A stretch of DNA of 53,515 nucleotides from a virus: positions 1 through 53,515 of the IMG/VR virus record IMGVR_UViG_3300036828_000767. One strand, given 5' to 3'. Position numbers and translations under genes: made by a program. Under the pieces are notes generated by a model. It was not told the DNA's origin and did no database searches. It was given only the letters and a program-made list of their open reading frames with translations. Shown piece by piece: positions 296 through 47,254 of this stretch. Every line of letters begins with the position of its first letter. Within the stretch, counting starts at the first letter, position 1.

Positions 296-820
296 ATGGC
301 CGAAAGCTGGCTGCCCATTCTTGGACACGAAGGACGCTACGAAGTTAGCGATCAGGGTCGGGTACAAAGCCTGCGGCACAAGTGGGGACCGAGACAGCAA
401 CCGTATTTGCTGAAGCCTCGCCTTGGCGACGACGGCAAGTACCGTGTGAACCTTTCTAGTGGCACATCGCCCCGGACCCGTGAAACGCGGCTGGTACATC
501 ACCTCGTGCTGGAAACGTTCATTGGCCCGCGTCCTGACGGGCAAGAAGCCAGACACGGCCCCGGCGGGGGGCAGGATAACCGTCTGGTGAACCTGCGCTG
601 GGGCACGAGAGAAGAAAACCAGATGGACAGGTTGCGTGACGGAACTAGCAACCGAGGCGAACGGCACGGCATGTCCAAACTTACCGTTACGGACGTACGA
701 GCTATCCGTTACCGCCATGTTGGAGGTGAATCGCAACGAGCACTTGCTCGCCGGTTCAACGTGGCACCCGAGACTGTGCGCTCCATAATCAGAGGACGTA
801 CGTGGGCACACATCCCTTGA
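296..820 (+). CDS. NUMOD4-HNH homing endonuclease
   Basis: A 174-residue free-standing homing-endonuclease-type protein. The N-terminal 30 residues (SWLPILGHEGRYEVSDQGRV) match the NUMOD4 DNA-binding motif; the middle (HHLVLETFIG, RHGPGGGQDNRLVNLRWGT, REEN) is the HNH nuclease; the last 50 residues (KLTVTDVRAIRYRH ... VRSIIRGRTW) form a helix-turn-helix. It is transcribed against the surrounding tail genes and lies exactly between two of them. It is clearly related to the HNH protein at 46157-46690, with the same domain order and a matching C-terminus. Such genes normally act for their own spread; a role in the phage cycle is not needed. Confidence 0.88.
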   Translation: MAESWLPILGHEGRYEVSDQGRVQSLRHKWGPRQQPYLLKPRLGDDGKYRVNLSSGTSPRTRETRLVHHLVLETFIGPRPDGQEARHGPGGGQDNRLVNLRWGTREENQMDRLRDGTSNRGERHGMSKLTVTDVRAIRYRHVGGESQRALARRFNVAPETVRSIIRGRTWAHIP

Positions 821-40417: not shown

Positions 40418-40531
40418 TTAGCCTACGCGCATCGAATCGCCGTAGCGGTAACGGCCACGCAGCTTGTTTGCCATCTGCCGGTAAGCGTCTGCTTCGGCGG
40501 GTGTCGCCGCGGGGTCATTCGCCTTCGTCAG
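40418..40531 (-). CDS. 37-codon frame overlapping the terminase end (doubtful)
   Basis: In the 131-base gap between the terminase stop and the next gene one frame reads NDPAATPAEADAYRQMANKL followed by RGRYRYGDSMRVG, which looks like real protein. Starts would be CTG at 40531 (GGAA 6 bases before) inside the terminase end, or ATG at 40474. It could also be the old terminase C-terminus after a frame change. Confidence 0.3.
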   Translation of the reverse strand: MTKANDPAATPAEADAYRQMANKLRGRYRYGDSMRVG

Positions 40532-42095
40532 GAGTTTCCGAATCCTGATCGCCTTCAGGATGTCCGCCCGTGTCAGGACCATCGCTGCCCTCAATCAGGA
40601 AAAACGGCTGCGGCGGCTTCTTGTCGCCGAAGGTGACCAGTCCATGCAACGCCAGGGTAACGCTTACCAAGGGTGTGATGTCGTATCCCGGTGCCGCGTC
40701 CCACGCCCACGCCTGCGCAACCGGCCGGGACCGCGCACCCTCCACCGCACTGTTCAACGGCACCTGCGACGGGTGCCCCAGTTCCTGATTCGTCACCATG
40801 TTGGTGAAATCGCCGCACGACTGTGCATACGCGCGGCTGGTCGTCAAAACCAGGCGGTGCTTCCCGAACGGGGTCGGCTTGTCGTCGGCAAGCGTGATGA
40901 AGCCGCGGTTCCGCAGGTGCTGCTCAAACGCGCCAGCAGGACCCGACGGGTTCAGCACCACCGCCACCGGGTTCCGCCGCTCGGTGATACCCATGAGACG
41001 GTCCAGCACCCAGCCGGTGCCAGGCAGGTGCTCGACCAGTTCCACGTGCGGCTTGCCGTCGTCCCGCCACGTCGCGATGCCGATAGCCGACACCGCACTG
41101 TCCGGCGAGATGTCCACCCCGACCGCCACAACCGGTGCCATACCCGGCCGCGAGCCGCCAAGCTGGCGCCACAGTTGCGGCGACAACGGCGCAGCGCCTT
41201 CTTCGCCTTGGTCCCACCAGCCCATCCGTTCCCGGCAGAACTCCGACACCGGAAGCGCACGCCGTTCCGCAGCGATGTACTCAAACGACAACCCGGTGCC
41301 ATTCGCTCGCCGCTTCCCCAGTGCAGGGTTCGCCATCGCCCAGAAGTCCGGCTTGTCGCAACCGCAGCCGACAGCGGTTTTCACATGGGTGCAACGGTCA
41401 CCTGCGTCACATGCCATCACCGGGTCTGGCGCGCACCATTCAAGCCATGCCAGGGAAGGCTCACCGCCGGCGCGGCCACGGTCGCGGACTTCCCGCAGTA
41501 CCTCCGATTCGACCATCCCAGCCGACGAGCCATAGAACACTTGCGGGTCGGGCTGTGCGGACATCGTCGGCAAGAGCGCACCGAGGTGAGGGGCCTTCAG
41601 GAACATGCCTTCGTCGAGCACGACCTTGTTGCCGGACAGGCCACGGCCGCCGCCCTTGGTCCTGGTGCGGAAAATGGCCCTGGCGCCGGATTTAAGCTCA
41701 ATGGCTTCTTCGCCGTGGTTGCGGACGACCTTTTTGACCTCGCGGCGGAGCAAATCGGAGTTCGTTACCAGGTCCACCATCAGGCGGAACACTTCCATTG
41801 CGGTGCCGAACTCGTGAGCCGAGTAAACGACCAGTCTGGTGTCGAAAATGTACAGCCAGCCATTGATTGCCATGATTTCCAGGGCCGTTTTGATGTTTTG
41901 CCGACCGCAAACGACGCCTATTTCGAATGCCGCGGACCTGCCGTTCTCCTTTTTAGCAAAAATGGCGTCTAGTGCGAGTCGCTGTTCCGGGTCTGGTTCA
42001 AAACCGGCAGCAGTATTCAAATCGGCGACCTCGTCGCCGAAGGTTTTATACACCGGCGGTACCCAAAGGTACGTCGGCTTTACGAGCCCCTGCAT
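40515..42095 (-). CDS. Terminase large subunit
   Basis: A 526-residue packaging motor and nuclease. The ATPase half has VCGRQNIKTALEIM as a variant Walker A (GRQNIKT), the segment KSGARAIFRTRTKGGGRGLS and KVVLDEGMF as Walker B (DE). The nuclease half has VVAVGVDISPDSAVSAIGIA with the first Asp, VVLNPSGPAGAFEQHL, and the Asp-rich C-terminus. An inserted Cys cluster (CDAGDRCTHVKTAVGCGCDK) may bind zinc. I prefer the ATG at 42095, which follows a TACGCT box by 6 bases, over the GTG at 42140, which lies inside a palindrome. Confidence 0.92.
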   Translation of the reverse strand: MQGLVKPTYLWVPPVYKTFGDEVADLNTAAGFEPDPEQRLALDAIFAKKENGRSAAFEIGVVCGRQNIKTALEIMAINGWLYIFDTRLVVYSAHEFGTAMEVFRLMVDLVTNSDLLRREVKKVVRNHGEEAIELKSGARAIFRTRTKGGGRGLSGNKVVLDEGMFLKAPHLGALLPTMSAQPDPQVFYGSSAGMVESEVLREVRDRGRAGGEPSLAWLEWCAPDPVMACDAGDRCTHVKTAVGCGCDKPDFWAMANPALGKRRANGTGLSFEYIAAERRALPVSEFCRERMGWWDQGEEGAAPLSPQLWRQLGGSRPGMAPVVAVGVDISPDSAVSAIGIATWRDDGKPHVELVEHLPGTGWVLDRLMGITERRNPVAVVLNPSGPAGAFEQHLRNRGFITLADDKPTPFGKHRLVLTTSRAYAQSCGDFTNMVTNQELGHPSQVPLNSAVEGARSRPVAQAWAWDAAPGYDITPLVSVTLALHGLVTFGDKKPPQPFFLIEGSDGPDTGGHPEGDQDSETPDEGE

Positions 42096-42107
42096 GCCGT
42101 AAGCGTA
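42096..42107 (-). promoter_or_regulatory. -10 box for leaderless terminase
   Basis: TACGCT (minus strand, 42107-42102), 6 bases, then ATG 42095. The 18-bp palindrome at 42128 would cover or touch the -35 region. Confidence 0.45.
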
Positions 42108-42127
42108 CCTAGCCCGCCCAAGGCTCC

Positions 42128-42158
42128 AAGCTGTGTACACAGCTTGTCACAACGTGAC
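42128..42158. promoter_or_regulatory. Operator-like double inverted repeat between divergent genes
   Basis: AAGCTGTGTACACAGCTT (42128-42145) is a perfect 18-bp palindrome; directly behind it GTCAC-AAC-GTGAC (42146-42158) is a second inverted repeat. Together they lie between the terminase start and the small plus-strand gene at 42210. Confidence 0.55.
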
Positions 42159-43220: not shown

Positions 43221-43775
43221 ATGCCTGAAGACATCAGGACCGCACTGCTGCGCGCCGCCGAGGAAGCCCTCGCAGCGCTTGCCAAGGCTGCGGCAGGTAA
43301 TAGCAACGACGCCGAGATTGAAGCGGGAGTGGATTGCGCCGACGCCCTGATGCGGCTCTGCGAATACGTCGTAACACTCCCCGCCGTTTCCTACAGCGAG
43401 GACGCCGTGTCCCAGGCGCTGAACTGGGCAGCAGACACGGCCCAGGAAATAACCAATCCAGAAGGCGGCGAGTCCAGCGGGTCCATCGAAACCGACGACG
43501 CCATCAACCTCGTAGTAAACCTCACCAGTGAACGCCTCAGGGGCGCCGGCAGCGCAGCGGAAGCGATCGGGTCTGCGTACAGCGAGGATATCCAGCCGTG
43601 GCACGGCTGGAAGGTCGAAGGCTGGCCCGAAGGCGAAGAATGCGCCACCTGCGGCGACGACATCCACCAGGATGACAACGGTGCCTGGCACCACGGCCCC
43701 TCAGCAGAAAACGCCGACCCTGGTCTCGACAGCACCCACACACCCGAGCCTTACGTGGAGGACGTCGGTGACTGA
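43221..43775 (+). CDS. Acidic helical protein with a CxxC, 184 residues
   Basis: AAAGGAGAAACC precedes the ATG. Helical first two thirds (ALLRAAEEALAALAKAAAGN; DALMRLCEYVVTLPAVSYSE), then GWPEGEECATCGDDIHQDDN + GAWHHG, a possible zinc knuckle, and an acidic tail. Its stop overlaps the GTG of the ASCH gene. Function unknown. Confidence 0.7.
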   Translation: MPEDIRTALLRAAEEALAALAKAAAGNSNDAEIEAGVDCADALMRLCEYVVTLPAVSYSEDAVSQALNWAADTAQEITNPEGGESSGSIETDDAINLVVNLTSERLRGAGSAAEAIGSAYSEDIQPWHGWKVEGWPEGEECATCGDDIHQDDNGAWHHGPSAENADPGLDSTHTPEPYVEDVGD

Positions 43776-44199
43776 CCTGCCCACCTACGCGGTGACACTG
43801 TGGCAGCCGTGGGCCTGGGCGGTGATCTTCGGCGGGAAGGACATCGAAAACCGGACCAGGCGGATCAGCCCCTGCAACCTGCTCATCCACGCCGGACTGT
43901 CTTACGACGACGACGCCGTGGACATGATCCTGAAACTGACCGGGCGGAAGCGGCTGCCGGAACTGGCGACCCGCGGCGGGTTCATCATCGGACGGGTCAC
44001 CGTCACCGACGCAACATTCGGCACACGGGACACCAGGAGCCCGTGGGCGTTCAAAAAAACGTGGCACTGGCACCTGGAACGCCCCCAGCGTGCTGACCCC
44101 CCCATCGTCTGCCGGGGTTACCCGTCGCTATGGCGCCCCCCTGAGGACTGGGAGAGGTCATTCACCGGGAGGCCGACGAAGCGAAGGCACACATCATGA
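43768..44199 (+). CDS. ASCH-domain (PUA-like) protein
   Basis: A 143-residue protein from the GTG at 43768. TLWQPWAWAVIFGGKDIENR is the typical ASCH opening (LSI.QPWA..I..G.K..E.R), LLIHAGLSYDD and RGGFIIGRVTVTDA follow, and WHLERPQ closes the domain. ASCH proteins bind RNA or modified nucleosides; in phages they often lie in accessory operons and some act as modified-base readers. Substrate unknown. Confidence 0.82.
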   Translation: MTDLPTYAVTLWQPWAWAVIFGGKDIENRTRRISPCNLLIHAGLSYDDDAVDMILKLTGRKRLPELATRGGFIIGRVTVTDATFGTRDTRSPWAFKKTWHWHLERPQRADPPIVCRGYPSLWRPPEDWERSFTGRPTKRRHTS

Positions 44200-44671: not shown

Positions 44672-44875
44672 ATGTCGAAGAAGCCTGAGGTTGAGTACCT
44701 GACCCCCAGAGAGGTTGCCGCGATGTTCCGCGTGGACCCCAAGACGGTGACCCGGTGGGCGAAGGCTGGGAAGATCGGCTCGATCCGCACGCTGGGTGGC
44801 CACCGGCGGTACGCGGAATCTGAGGTGCGGGCTTTGCTTCAGCGGTACGAACCGCCGCAGAACCCCGAGCAATAG
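44672..44875 (+). CDS. Small helix-turn-helix protein, BldC/excisionase-like
   Basis: A 67-residue MerR-superfamily HTH: EYLTPREVAAMFRVDPKTVT as HTH, RWAKAGKIGSIRTLGGHRRY as wing, SEVRALLQRYE as end helix. This is the BldC/AlpA/Xis type. It binds DNA and may act as excisionase or as regulator of phage genes; no integrase is present in the window to decide. Confidence 0.85.
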   Translation: MSKKPEVEYLTPREVAAMFRVDPKTVTRWAKAGKIGSIRTLGGHRRYAESEVRALLQRYEPPQNPEQ

Positions 44876-45082
44876 GTGGACATCTACGTTGCCGTAGCGG
44901 ACTATCCCTGCCAGGACCGGTACACACCCAGTGCCATCTTCGGAGCATTCAGCACCGAAGAAAGGGCTCGGGCGGCAGTGGAAGAAGACGCCGGACCGCT
45001 GGAATGGAAAGAAGATAGGGCCACCGACGCTGCCGGCGTTAACTTTACGGTGATGCTGGTCAGCCTGGATGAGGCTATTTGA
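44876..45082 (+). CDS. 68-residue protein, unknown
   Basis: GTG start directly behind the HTH stop. Reads DIYVAVADYPCQDRYTPSAI, FGAFSTEERARAAVEEDAGP, VNFTVMLVSLDEAI: a beta-alpha-beta fold resembling small phage proteins with a F.T.E.A...V element. It ends 8 bases inside the minus-strand ABC/GNAT gene's end region. Confidence 0.6.
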   Translation: MDIYVAVADYPCQDRYTPSAIFGAFSTEERARAAVEEDAGPLEWKEDRATDAAGVNFTVMLVSLDEAI

Positions 45083-46172
45083 CCGGCAGGTACTCGAACG
45101 ACCTGGTACCGAGTGAACGAGGGTCTAGGGCGCGGGCGGTCATACCGCCACGTTTTGGGCCAACACGTTTCCCGGTGCCGAGCTGACGCGATCTGACCGT
45201 GGAACGCCACCTTGGTGACGCGACAAAGTAATGCACCAGGCCGGGATGTGCGGTGACGAACCGGTACCGGTAGCCCCGGTCGGCGAGGTACTGGCCCTGC
45301 CACTCGCACAGGTGCTTGGCGATGCCCAGCCCCTGCCAGTCGGGCAGCACCACCACCCGGTGCGCCATCTGGATGTCCCGCACCTTCGGGTGGGGGAAAT
45401 GCCGGTAAGAGGAGAACGCGACAGGCCGGCCGTCGCAGTACACGCCGAAACATTTAGCCGTGGTATGGAGGGAGGCGCTCAGATAGTGATACCTAGCAAA
45501 CAGGGGCCAGATGGCGCGACTGCATTGGTGAATCTGGAGACTGATCGGCGGATGGGGTCTTTTAGACCTCCAGGCGAACTCGCCAAGCGGCATCTCAACC
45601 ACCCAATCGGGCTGAAGCCATTCGAGGACATCTTCGTGACAAGTTACCGCGATGAGCCTACGGTCTGTTTTACGGATCGCCTTTTGCAAGGCATGGGAAG
45701 CCACCCGCGCCACGTGCCTATCAACGACAGAACTGTATTCATCTATTACCGCAACGCCACCGGCAGGCGTTTCTGCGATGGCCCTTGCAACATCGGCCCG
45801 GAAGGCTTCACCGGTACTGAGCGTGGAGTAGGGCCGGACCCAGGCAGGCACGCTGCCCAGCCCCACGGCGGTCAGGAGCTTGACGGTCTCGCCTACGCCC
45901 ACCGGGAACCCGTCTATCAGCGCCTTATCCTCCGGCCAGTTGTACCGCTGAGTACATTGTGGCCATGCTTCTTCTGCAAGGAGACTCTTACCTGCCCCAG
46001 ATGGACCGGTGACAAGGCCGATATTCCACGGTTTTTCGTCGAGAGGCATCCTTACGTCAAGGTCAACTCGCAGTTTTTGGTCGAGTGGAATGTCCATGAG
46101 GCCCGCGACCTGCAACGCCCGAGGCGTCCGGGTTATTGTGTAGTCCTTACTAATTCTTATATGTGTTTCCAT
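45075..46172 (-). CDS. ABC-type ATPase fused to a GNAT (Mom-like) acyltransferase domain
   Basis: A 365-residue fusion. The N-terminal ABC-ATPase has Walker A GPSGAGKS (56-63), an LSTGE signature (118-122), Walker B GVAVIDEYSS (139-148) and CHED with the switch His 179, but lacks membrane partners. From about 210 follows a GNAT fold: ARYHYLSASLHTTAK (226-240), FGVYCDGRPVAFSSY, and VVVLPDWQGLGIAKHL (273-288) with the CoA-binding Q-G-x-G. An HY-x-S block before the GNAT core is, to my memory, seen in Mom-type DNA modifiers. A ParB-like gene is upstream. AAAGGAAGG precedes the ATG, which overlaps the HNH stop. Confidence 0.8.
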   Translation of the reverse strand: METHIRISKDYTITRTPRALQVAGLMDIPLDQKLRVDLDVRMPLDEKPWNIGLVTGPSGAGKSLLAEEAWPQCTQRYNWPEDKALIDGFPVGVGETVKLLTAVGLGSVPAWVRPYSTLSTGEAFRADVARAIAETPAGGVAVIDEYSSVVDRHVARVASHALQKAIRKTDRRLIAVTCHEDVLEWLQPDWVVEMPLGEFAWRSKRPHPPISLQIHQCSRAIWPLFARYHYLSASLHTTAKCFGVYCDGRPVAFSSYRHFPHPKVRDIQMAHRVVVLPDWQGLGIAKHLCEWQGQYLADRGYRYRFVTAHPGLVHYFVASPRWRSTVRSRQLGTGKRVGPKRGGMTARALDPRSLGTRSFEYLPVK

Positions 46173-46690
46173 AGCCTTCCTTTGATGATGCTGCATACGG
46201 CACTACGGCTTATCCCAAATTCGGCAGCAAGGTTCTTCTGCTGTTCGCCTTCCTGGTGGCGCAGTCTGATTTGCCGTACGTCCTCAGCGGTCAGTTTGGC
46301 GTTGCCATGATTCTCACCCCTAGGCGAACGCTCTCCGTTACCGTCACGGATATCGCGATCCCAAGCATTTTCGGCCGCAGTGCCCCACCGCAGGTTTGGC
46401 AAAGAATTGTCGAATGGCCCAGCAGGGCCGTGCAGGGCCATAGCCCCGGGAGGTGGCGGGCCAGCGAAGGCTTCAAGAACCAGTCGTGCGACCGAGTAAA
46501 ACCTTTCTTCCTGAACGCCATCTTCGAACCGGCAGAGCCTCACCCGGATGTACCGCTCCTTGACACCACCTAGAAGCCGTCCGCCGCGCATGCCGTAATG
46601 GTGACGCCGGGGAAGACTTCGGACCCTGCCCAGATCGGAGACCTCGTAAAGATGCACCCAGCCTGGCACTGGCCGCCAACATTCCGTCAT
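46157..46690 (-). CDS. NUMOD4-HNH homing endonuclease inside the ParB / ABC-GNAT cassette
   Basis: A 177-residue relative of the protein at 296-820: NUMOD4 start CWRPVPGWVHLYEVSDLGRV, HNH part LVLEAFAGPP ... ALHGPAGPFDNSLPNLRWGT, and HTH end KLTAEDVRQIRLRH ... VCSIIKGRLWKH. It lies between the ParB-like gene (24 bases) and the ABC-GNAT gene (16-base overlap), and so has probably entered an existing two-gene unit. No ribosome-binding site; TACGTT box 6 bases before the ATG. Confidence 0.87.
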   Translation of the reverse strand: MTECWRPVPGWVHLYEVSDLGRVRSLPRRHHYGMRGGRLLGGVKERYIRVRLCRFEDGVQEERFYSVARLVLEAFAGPPPPGAMALHGPAGPFDNSLPNLRWGTAAENAWDRDIRDGNGERSPRGENHGNAKLTAEDVRQIRLRHQEGEQQKNLAAEFGISRSAVCSIIKGRLWKHI

Positions 46691-46705
46691 AGAGTTAACG
46701 TACCA
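46691..46705 (-). promoter_or_regulatory. Extended -10 box for the leaderless HNH gene at 46690
   Basis: TGG-TACGTT (minus strand, hexamer 46702-46697), 6 bases, then ATG. Confidence 0.4.
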
Positions 46706-46714
46706 CGGGGCACG

Positions 46715-47254
46715 TCAAGTCATAAGTGCACGAACGGACAGCCCCTGGGTGGACAGCGTTTCGAGGAGGCGAAGCTGCTCATCCTCCGAGCCGCATTCAA
46801 CAATTACACCCCAGCGCATTCCGGCTTCCTCACCGTCACCGAGTTCGTCGGGGAGGGGCGGGTCGATCATCCGATCGACTTCCACTGCCGTGAACCCAGT
46901 GCCCTCGTAGTCGCCGTCGAGGTAGGAGAGGAGTTCAACGAGGGCATCCTTGTCGTCAGTCGCCAGATCGCTGATCCGGTTGTCGGCGATGTTGATACGA
47001 GCGGCCTCGTCGTCGCTGCATTTGAGGAGGGCACAGTCGCCTTCGGTGAAACCTTCAGCTTCCATGGCGTCGGCGGTGCCGTTGCCAGCAAGTATCACCA
47101 TCGAGTCGTCGTCCAGTACGCGGACAACAAGTGGACGGTACTGCCCGAGCCGTTTCACCGAAGCCCTGATCTGGTCGTCCGCATGGATGCGGGCGTTGCC
47201 GGGGAACCGGGCGAGGTCTGACAGATGAAGTCGCTGCTCTCCAAGGCGTTCCAT
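46715..47254 (-). CDS. ParB-like nuclease-domain protein
   Basis: A 179-residue protein with a ParB/Srx domain: RLHLSDLARFPGNARIHADD, GQYRPLVVRVLDDDSMVILA with GNGT (57-60) at the place of the GERR motif, then EEARINIADNRISDLA-like helix. The C-terminal 35 residues (GVIVECGSEDEQLRLLETLS) form a second small domain usual in phage ParB proteins linked to DNA modification. It lacks a partitioning partner. In such cassettes ParB-like proteins act with an ATPase and a modifying enzyme on DNA. Start ATG 47254 is 6 bases behind TAGACT. Confidence 0.85.
   Translation of the reverse strand: MERLGEQRLHLSDLARFPGNARIHADDQIRASVKRLGQYRPLVVRVLDDDSMVILAGNGTADAMEAEGFTEGDCALLKCSDDEAARINIADNRISDLATDDKDALVELLSYLDGDYEGTGFTAVEVDRMIDPPLPDELGDGEEAGMRWGVIVECGSEDEQLRLLETLSTQGLSVRALMT

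Follow-up and report, generated by a model that had tools for sequence, protein, structure and literature searches.

Iyer et al. (2013) predicted that a GNAT protein coupled to an ABC ATPase places an uncharacterised acyl modification on a DNA base, with the Tenacibaculum phage pT24 as the example of such a system (PMC7824862); as reported there, the published ABC-GNAT system is known as a prediction only. Mom of phage Mu also has a GNAT fold (PMC7824862), and in (PIN)-GNAT-EVE operons with an adjoining ASCH gene the GNAT is proposed to act on nucleic-acid bases (PMC7641849). Here we describe a locus of this kind in a 53,515-base stretch of viral DNA (the window; bases 1-53515 of the 117515-base IMG/VR record IMGVR_UViG_3300036828_000767). 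Three minus-strand genes, for a ParB-like protein, an HNH endonuclease and a fusion of an ABC ATPase to a GNAT domain (ABC-GNAT), lie where a first-pass annotation of the window had placed them. Judged from sequence, the ParB-like and ABC-GNAT genes belong to the predicted, uncharacterised family of phage DNA acyl-modification systems, and their predicted function is best read as that of a cassette for DNA acyl modification, a reading that is partly supported. We think it somewhat probable that the ParB-like protein and ABC-GNAT work as a single cassette and that, late in infection and just ahead of packaging, this cassette acylates a base of the phage's own DNA.

The locus resembles each of these systems in part. 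The window protein finds the pT24 system, which has the same domain pair, at 36.7% identity (E 2e-52), but the pT24 match is split between two annotated genes. Mom shares with ABC-GNAT the fold and an HY pair followed by an arginine in the same order, but the 3.2 kb of Mu around mom carry no annotated ABC or ParB gene. For the GNAT-EVE operons, the available part of the account describes no ABC ATPase and makes no mention of ParB (PMC7641849). The partial literature covered, from which Iyer et al. 2013 lies apart, yielded no account of the donor-making genes, ASCH link, terminase link or frameshift described below; this family context would turn the predicted system into a variant with testable chemistry.

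The ABC-GNAT protein and its relation to Mom

ABC-GNAT is encoded in one open frame at 45075..46196 (-), a 373-aa open reading frame (ORF) whose residue numbers we use throughout, with the ABC ATPase first and the GNAT domain in the C-terminal half. The first ATG of the ORF, at 46196, falls within the HNH gene; the true start is likely the ATG at 46172 (METHIRISKDY..., 365 aa), which overlaps the HNH stop. The protein matches phrog_11143 over residues 14-346 (E 3.7e-93), so that this family, now filed as function unknown, gains a candidate function, and Pfam Acetyltransf_1 (PF00583) matches above its cut-off (E 9.6e-07). In an AlphaFold2 model of the whole protein (mean predicted local distance difference test score, pLDDT, 91.6; predicted template modelling score, pTM, 0.86), residues ~8-213 resemble ABC ATPases with Z 13-14, and residues 216-372 resemble GNATs, with 1y9k giving Z 14.7, a root-mean-square deviation of 3.8 and 136 aligned residues. 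The GNAT domain modelled on its own (residues 206-373, 45078..45581 (-), pLDDT 88.5) likewise resembles GNATs, at Z 14.7 for 1y9k and 14.4 for RimI (5isv). A single protein joining a soluble ABC ATPase to a GNAT domain, as the first-pass annotation had it, is thus borne out.

The family is widespread. A tblastn search with the window protein matched 81 of 50,697 phage records, some over the ABC part only; from the two viral-contig searches we kept the best 80 of 89 and the best 80 of at least 591 relatives, and from the genome search the best 80 of 476. Conservation was scored over 129 representatives, that is, ABC-GNAT sequences below 75% identity, window included. The residues of Walker A (G60-K70), the signature (L126-S127-x-G129), Walker B (D152-E153), the D-loop (D159-R160) and the H-switch (H187) are conserved in 128 or 129 of them, and with all five motifs in place, including the catalytic glutamate of Walker B, the domain at 45582..46169 (-) reads as an ABC ATPase. 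In the GNAT half, H237 and Y238 of the HYL motif (H237-Y238-L239, 45480..45488 (-)) and R280, the arginine of the HRxVxLPD strand (45357..45359 (-)), are each present in 129 of 129. The CoA-binding loop of GNATs follows the motif Q/R-x-x-G-x-G/A, and its positions are kept at Q288 (127 of 129), G289 (129 of 129) and G291 (124 of 129); fold and loop together place the domain in the GNAT superfamily.

This conservation bears on whether the transferase is active at all. ABC ATPases paired with ParB recall chromosome-handling systems, and the ABC part has UvrA among its weak sequence matches, so the set could be imagined as a module for partition, condensation or DNA-end handling whose GNAT domain is only structural. 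We regard this as improbable, since the HY pair and the arginine are invariant in every representative and the donor-making genes of one subfamily, described below, make sense only with an active transferase.

The first-pass annotation had called the cassette Mom-like, a description that holds for the superfamily fold and for the HY...R residues and little further. The references for Mom were PF25680, phrog_1384 and PDB 8bv8. The two profiles recognise Mu Mom itself (E 2.4e-75 and 7.8e-84), but no Mom profile appears among the Pfam and PHROG matches of ABC-GNAT up to E 1. Mu Mom has KHYS and then ELNR where the ABC-GNAT family has HYL and then HRxVxLPD, so that H237, Y238 and R280 correspond to Mom H58, Y59 and R111, the HY register being taken from hhalign and that of the arginine by eye; in the Mom alignment the HY pair stands in six of seven rows (the seventh does not cover the region) and R111 in all seven. 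By hhalign, HY falls on HY over 51 columns, with a weak score (E 0.0041, probability 8.3%). The Mom motifs E108-L109-x-R111 and S146-x-A148-D149, compared by eye, are absent from the family, which shows HRxVxLPD and TSHP-type sequences at these places.

Structure comparison of the GNAT part, which the first-pass annotation had proposed as a check, gave a clear GNAT fold, and the nearest of the structures listed are GNATs other than Mom: IAA acetyltransferase, RimI and N-terminal acetyltransferases. 8bv8 is not among the 50 matches listed in either search with the GNAT model, which leaves room for a likeness to it. The annotation had also held that alignment of the GNAT part with protein or small-molecule acetyltransferases, together with loss of the Mom-type active site, would speak against its proposal. 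Enzymes of those two kinds are indeed nearest among the matches listed, and the ELxR and SxAD motifs are missing, while HY...R is kept. The neighbours make up part of that objection, though fold ranking does not fix the substrate of the domain. Direct kinship with Mom was thus left unsupported by profile search, profile-profile comparison and fold search. With the Mom profile unmatched, ELxR and SxAD missing and the hhalign score weak, ABC-GNAT is not established as a Mom, and we consider it very improbable that the cassette is genuinely homologous to Mom and produces its modification, even with the common HY...R order and the paired HY columns in its favour. The GNAT domain may nevertheless work like Mom. 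Among the loci collected, Salinibacter phage B2_17 carries a Mom homologue (L296, 340-948) followed directly by a tRNA-Gly gene.

The ParB-like partner and the packaging side

The ParB-like protein (179 aa, 46715..47254 (-)) matches two ParB families of PHROG, phrog_723 (E 6.9e-37) and phrog_620 (E 2.6e-30), and reaches only E 0.083, below cut-off, against Pfam ParB_N. At residues 57-60 it reads GNGT in place of GERR, as the first-pass annotation had noticed. Among 125 aligned ParB proteins of the family, this place ends in R in 97, in T in 24 and in a gap in 4; at least 81 have GHxR there, and 21 have GNHT or GNGT. Since T is the final letter in 24 of 125 proteins, GNGT is a lineage variant rather than an oddity of the window. 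A C-terminal CxxExxQ motif is conserved (C154 in 106, E157 in 120 and Q160 in 121 of 125). By profile count, a same-strand ParB match accompanies 125 of the 129 representative ABC-GNAT loci, with a gap of at most 200 bases in 115 of the 125 pairs and, for genes called from their first start codons, an overlap of exactly 21 bases in 45. The profile count replaces an earlier one (64 of 66 viral and 54 of 55 genome loci), which came from single-linkage BLAST clusters with offsets of up to 3.7 kb.

Two variations on the ParB arrangement were seen. In four loci from SSU5-like, Rhizobium and Stenotrophomonas phages (L087, L088, L089, L097), two ParB-like genes accompany an unfused ABC ATPase and the terminase follows; the three of these that were scanned (L088, L089, L097) have a separate phrog_886 protein, annotated in pJN2-26 as a predicted acyl-CoA N-acyltransferase domain. 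In Pseudanabaena phage Pam4 (L096, 3908-6397), an 829-aa protein with the annotation of a pyridoxal-phosphate dependent enzyme contains a ParB-like region, which may point to a further modification route linked to ParB.

The cassette also keeps company with the terminase. To locate its large subunit, 65 records were searched with phrog_2 and phrog_9, and the window was added (66 in all); annotated coordinates were used for P335, LE3 and NHagos, in the last case replacing a weak phrog_2 match elsewhere. A terminase was found in 51 records and none in 15. Terminase and ABC-GNAT share a strand and lie no more than 4 kb apart in 39 of the 51, where random placement expects about 5.7, and the terminase is downstream in 38 of these 39, the other (G025) being a weak upstream match. 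If record ends are joined, the terminase comes within 2.4 kb in Oenococcus phage Vinitor-27, SSU5 and G037, and within 5.6-6.9 kb in EastWest, G021 and Jace (counted twice, as G020 and W01); in G030 it is 5.4 kb from ABC-GNAT. The window fits the pattern, with its terminase (40515..42140 (-), phrog_9 E 1.6e-58) 2938 bases downstream of ABC-GNAT.

This placement lends some weight to a different target. The GNAT could acylate a protein (terminase, portal, RNA polymerase or another host protein), so that the cassette would regulate packaging or host takeover, with ParB and the ABC domain placing it near pac. The closest listed folds include RimI and N-terminal acetyltransferases, the terminase link is strong, and phage GNATs such as Rac of phiKMV acetylate host proteins (PMC7824862). 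Yet a protein target leaves the company of ParB, ASCH and donor-making genes unexplained, and the PUA-type domains, to which ASCH belongs, include binders of modified bases (PMC7641849, PMC12707154); we hold this alternative to be unlikely, if the least unlikely of those considered.

ASCH and candidate donor-making genes

ASCH is a PUA-like domain, and several PUA-like domains bind modified bases (PMC7641849, PMC12707154). In the 65 records, Pfam ASCH matches occur in 17, above cut-off in 13. With the Jace duplicate removed, 13 of 16 distinct records with ASCH have it within 1.5 kb of ABC-GNAT (p ~1e-11 under a uniform model), convergent with ABC-GNAT in 8 of these 13. As a control, 80 loci were found by a terminase type used in some ABC-GNAT phages, and 78 of them lack ABC-GNAT; within 6 kb these 78 hold no ASCH and one ParB. 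The 6-kb control used an ASCH profile trained on ASCH genes near ABC-GNAT; the Pfam ASCH model repeated the test and gave no match in the 50 of the 78 control records to which it was applied. The control records are relatives of one terminase type, many of them short. In the two control loci that do carry ABC-GNAT, ASCH is present in one and ParB in both. Nine loci were found with the window's own terminase: three have ABC-GNAT, ASCH and ParB, and the other six hold less than 1 kb before the terminase.

In the window, an ASCH-like (PUA-type) gene lies between ABC-GNAT and the terminase at about 43768-44199 (+), convergent with ABC-GNAT and with a likely GTG start at 43768. Its product matches the neighbour-built ASCH profile at E 1.9e-36, a profile that may contain the window sequence, and phrog_3193, a phrog of unknown function, at E 2.3e-19; a Pfam scan of the protein gave no match. 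The ASCH enzyme YqfB deacylates N4-acylcytidines and N4-acyl-deoxycytidine, with Thr24 as nucleophile and with Lys21 and Arg26 (PMC6972931). The cassette ASCH proteins resemble YqfB in the domain and in a lysine with an arginine five residues on, but differ in that the threonine three residues past the lysine is a glutamate: the window protein reads K-D-I-E-N-R and its listed neighbours K-x-x-E-x-R. A role as a YqfB-type eraser is therefore doubtful, and reading an acylated base is the likelier function, since the threonine nucleophile is replaced by glutamate.

ASCH also bears on whether the substrate is DNA. GNAT toxins target aminoacyl-tRNA and GNAT-EVE/ASCH operons are proposed toxin-antitoxin systems (PMC7641849), while YqfB-type ASCH proteins act on N4-acylcytidines (PMC6972931), so the GNAT might acylate tRNA, other RNA or aminoacyl-tRNA in a toxin or translation-control module. 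The ParB partner and the packaging-side place suit DNA better, and ASCH, within 1.5 kb of ABC-GNAT in only 23 of the 129 representatives, is too rare for an obligate antitoxin; we give an RNA substrate a small chance, somewhat below that of a protein.

A further set of neighbours would bear on the chemistry. After ABC-GNAT, Jace and several viral and genome loci carry an aspartate decarboxylase-family gene, PanD (PF02261), and a CoA-transferase of family III (PF02515). Each model matches above cut-off in five of five proteins scanned (in Jace, E 2e-33 and 2.2e-08). K8, Y21, G23-S24, R53, Y57 and N69 are core residues of PanD, and they are invariant in six of six. Starting from the CoA-transferase, we found 39 viral loci; ABC-GNAT is present in 36, 30 of these with PanD, and the remaining three end at the contig edge on the ABC-GNAT side. 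A single HY-bearing ORF ahead of the CoA-transferase encodes ABC-GNAT in 35 of the 36, and two overlapping ORFs do so in L452. Among 47 viral PanD loci, 24 have both the CoA-transferase and ABC-GNAT, five (L410, L411, L414, L415, L416) show no CoA-transferase match and carry, about 1.2 kb past PanD, an HY-bearing ABC-GNAT 401-409 aa long, one (L419) includes the CoA-transferase and breaks off at the end of its contig, and 17 have neither within the stretch examined. Several of these PanD and CoA-transferase loci are near-identical contigs. PanD is found in 5 of 65 ABC-GNAT records versus 0 of 50 controls, a comparison biased by three records (L108, L112, L123) that were listed for carrying it. 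In two other phages, NHagos and Komp_PAO1_1, a formyltransferase (PF00551) directly follows ABC-GNAT instead.

Some side observations concern these genes. In Jace (L001, 4489-7254), ParB, ABC-GNAT, PanD and the CoA-transferase are consecutive, the last annotated as a hypothetical protein. One group of near-identical contigs (L387-L389, L438-L441, L444) carries another ABC-GNAT, 408 aa long, after the series ABC-GNAT, PanD and CoA-transferase. PanD matches 15 records of the 'phages' collection, two of them Jace; many of the rest seem to be bacterial contigs placed under phages.

PanD and the CoA-transferase would form a possible route to beta-alanyl-CoA, from aspartate to beta-alanine, beta-alanyl-CoA and an acylated base. 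More tentatively, the ParB-ABC-GNAT set could be an ATP-gated family of nucleobase acyltransferases distinct from Mom, in which PanD and a dedicated phage CoA-transferase supply beta-alanyl-CoA for an N-beta-alanyl base, other phages obtain an altered product through a formyltransferase variant, ASCH reads the product, and in Firmicutes phages the ABC and GNAT parts are joined by a -1 frameshift; we see this fuller scheme as possible and well short of probable. The gene order yields a defined chemical guess, an N-beta-alanyl base at +71.04 Da. If true, a phage base modification fed by its own small-molecule pathway would be new DNA chemistry and a probable restriction shield.

In such a cassette, ParB would load the ParB/ABC-GNAT complex on DNA, ATP-driven dimerisation of the ABC domain would clamp or open the DNA, and the GNAT domain would transfer an acyl group from acyl-CoA to an exocyclic amine of a base. 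The ASCH protein might read the acylated base or clear acylated nucleosides. Because PanD and CoA-transferase genes were not detected in the window's record, in searches run without a positive control, the window phage may use a host acyl-CoA, perhaps acetyl-CoA, and the subfamily with PanD and the CoA-transferase may use beta-alanyl-CoA.

The context of ParB partner, ASCH genes and donor-making genes fits DNA acyl modification, and the first-pass idea that the unit modifies phage DNA keeps the backing of a published precedent that is itself a prediction, of the ParB partner, of ASCH in a minority of loci and of donor genes in relatives; only its comparison with Mom has loosened. Several points weigh against this reading. 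Base acylation by ABC-GNAT remains a prediction; the top listed structural neighbours of its GNAT domain are protein and small-molecule acetyltransferases, and the Mom comparisons by profile and by hhalign gave no match and a weak score, respectively. ASCH lies within 1.5 kb of ABC-GNAT in a minority of representatives and carries a glutamate where an eraser would have its nucleophile, PanD and the CoA-transferase come within 1.5 kb in few (5 and 6 of 129), and the window's own record yielded neither. Four loci (L167, L225, PX29, Komp_PAO1_1) show no ParB match within the stretch examined, and G027, pT24, PX29 and Komp_PAO1_1 show no terminase link. That link is a pattern rather than 39 independent events, because many of the records are related, and a regulator of packaging might likewise be found beside the terminase.

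Domain junctions and neighbouring genes

Seven phage records (L003, L004, L094, L465, L466, L467, L468; Oenococcus, Lactococcus, Streptococcus, Enterococcus and Thomasclavelia phages), selected for a tblastn match split in two, have GNAT in the -1 frame relative to ABC. The two frames share 97-136 bases, and the HYL codons, read out of frame, supply the stop codon of the ABC frame. Five of the seven have no ATG, GTG or TTG before HY in the GNAT frame; this lack of a start codon suggests, at the level of the reading frames, that -1 frameshifting joins the two parts. In L467 and L468 a start codon is present, and GNAT is possibly a separate gene. A T-rich GGTTTTTC is a candidate slip site common to the four Lactococcus and Streptococcus records, and AAAGGGC is the candidate in L003; we found no single slip site that fits all the overlapping-frame records. 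Elsewhere, the ABC-GNAT frame is interrupted by a stop or frame change in pT24 (L086), L165, L202 and L085, in the last at a run of about 11 A, and these breaks may be decay, slippage or assembly error.

The window's HNH gene (46157..46690 (-)) encodes a NUMOD4/HNH endonuclease with a C-terminal helix-turn-helix (HTH) domain (PF07463 E 5.2e-10; phrog_1492 E 6.6e-33) and sits between the otherwise adjacent ParB and ABC-GNAT genes. The first-pass annotation had it splitting the unit; it does separate the two genes, but both are left whole. The nearest relatives, L006 and L007, lack an HNH gene at this place: ParB and ABC-GNAT are consecutive in L006 and separated by an unrelated stretch of about 200 bases in L007. 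In domain content and in its insertion between two adjacent genes, the gene is like other NUMOD4/HNH homing endonucleases and differs from them in nothing unusual. The window has another HNH gene of this type at 296-820 (+) (E 7.4e-37), and a BldC/excisionase-like HTH protein is encoded at 44672-44875 (+) (NF033787, E 1.4e-30).

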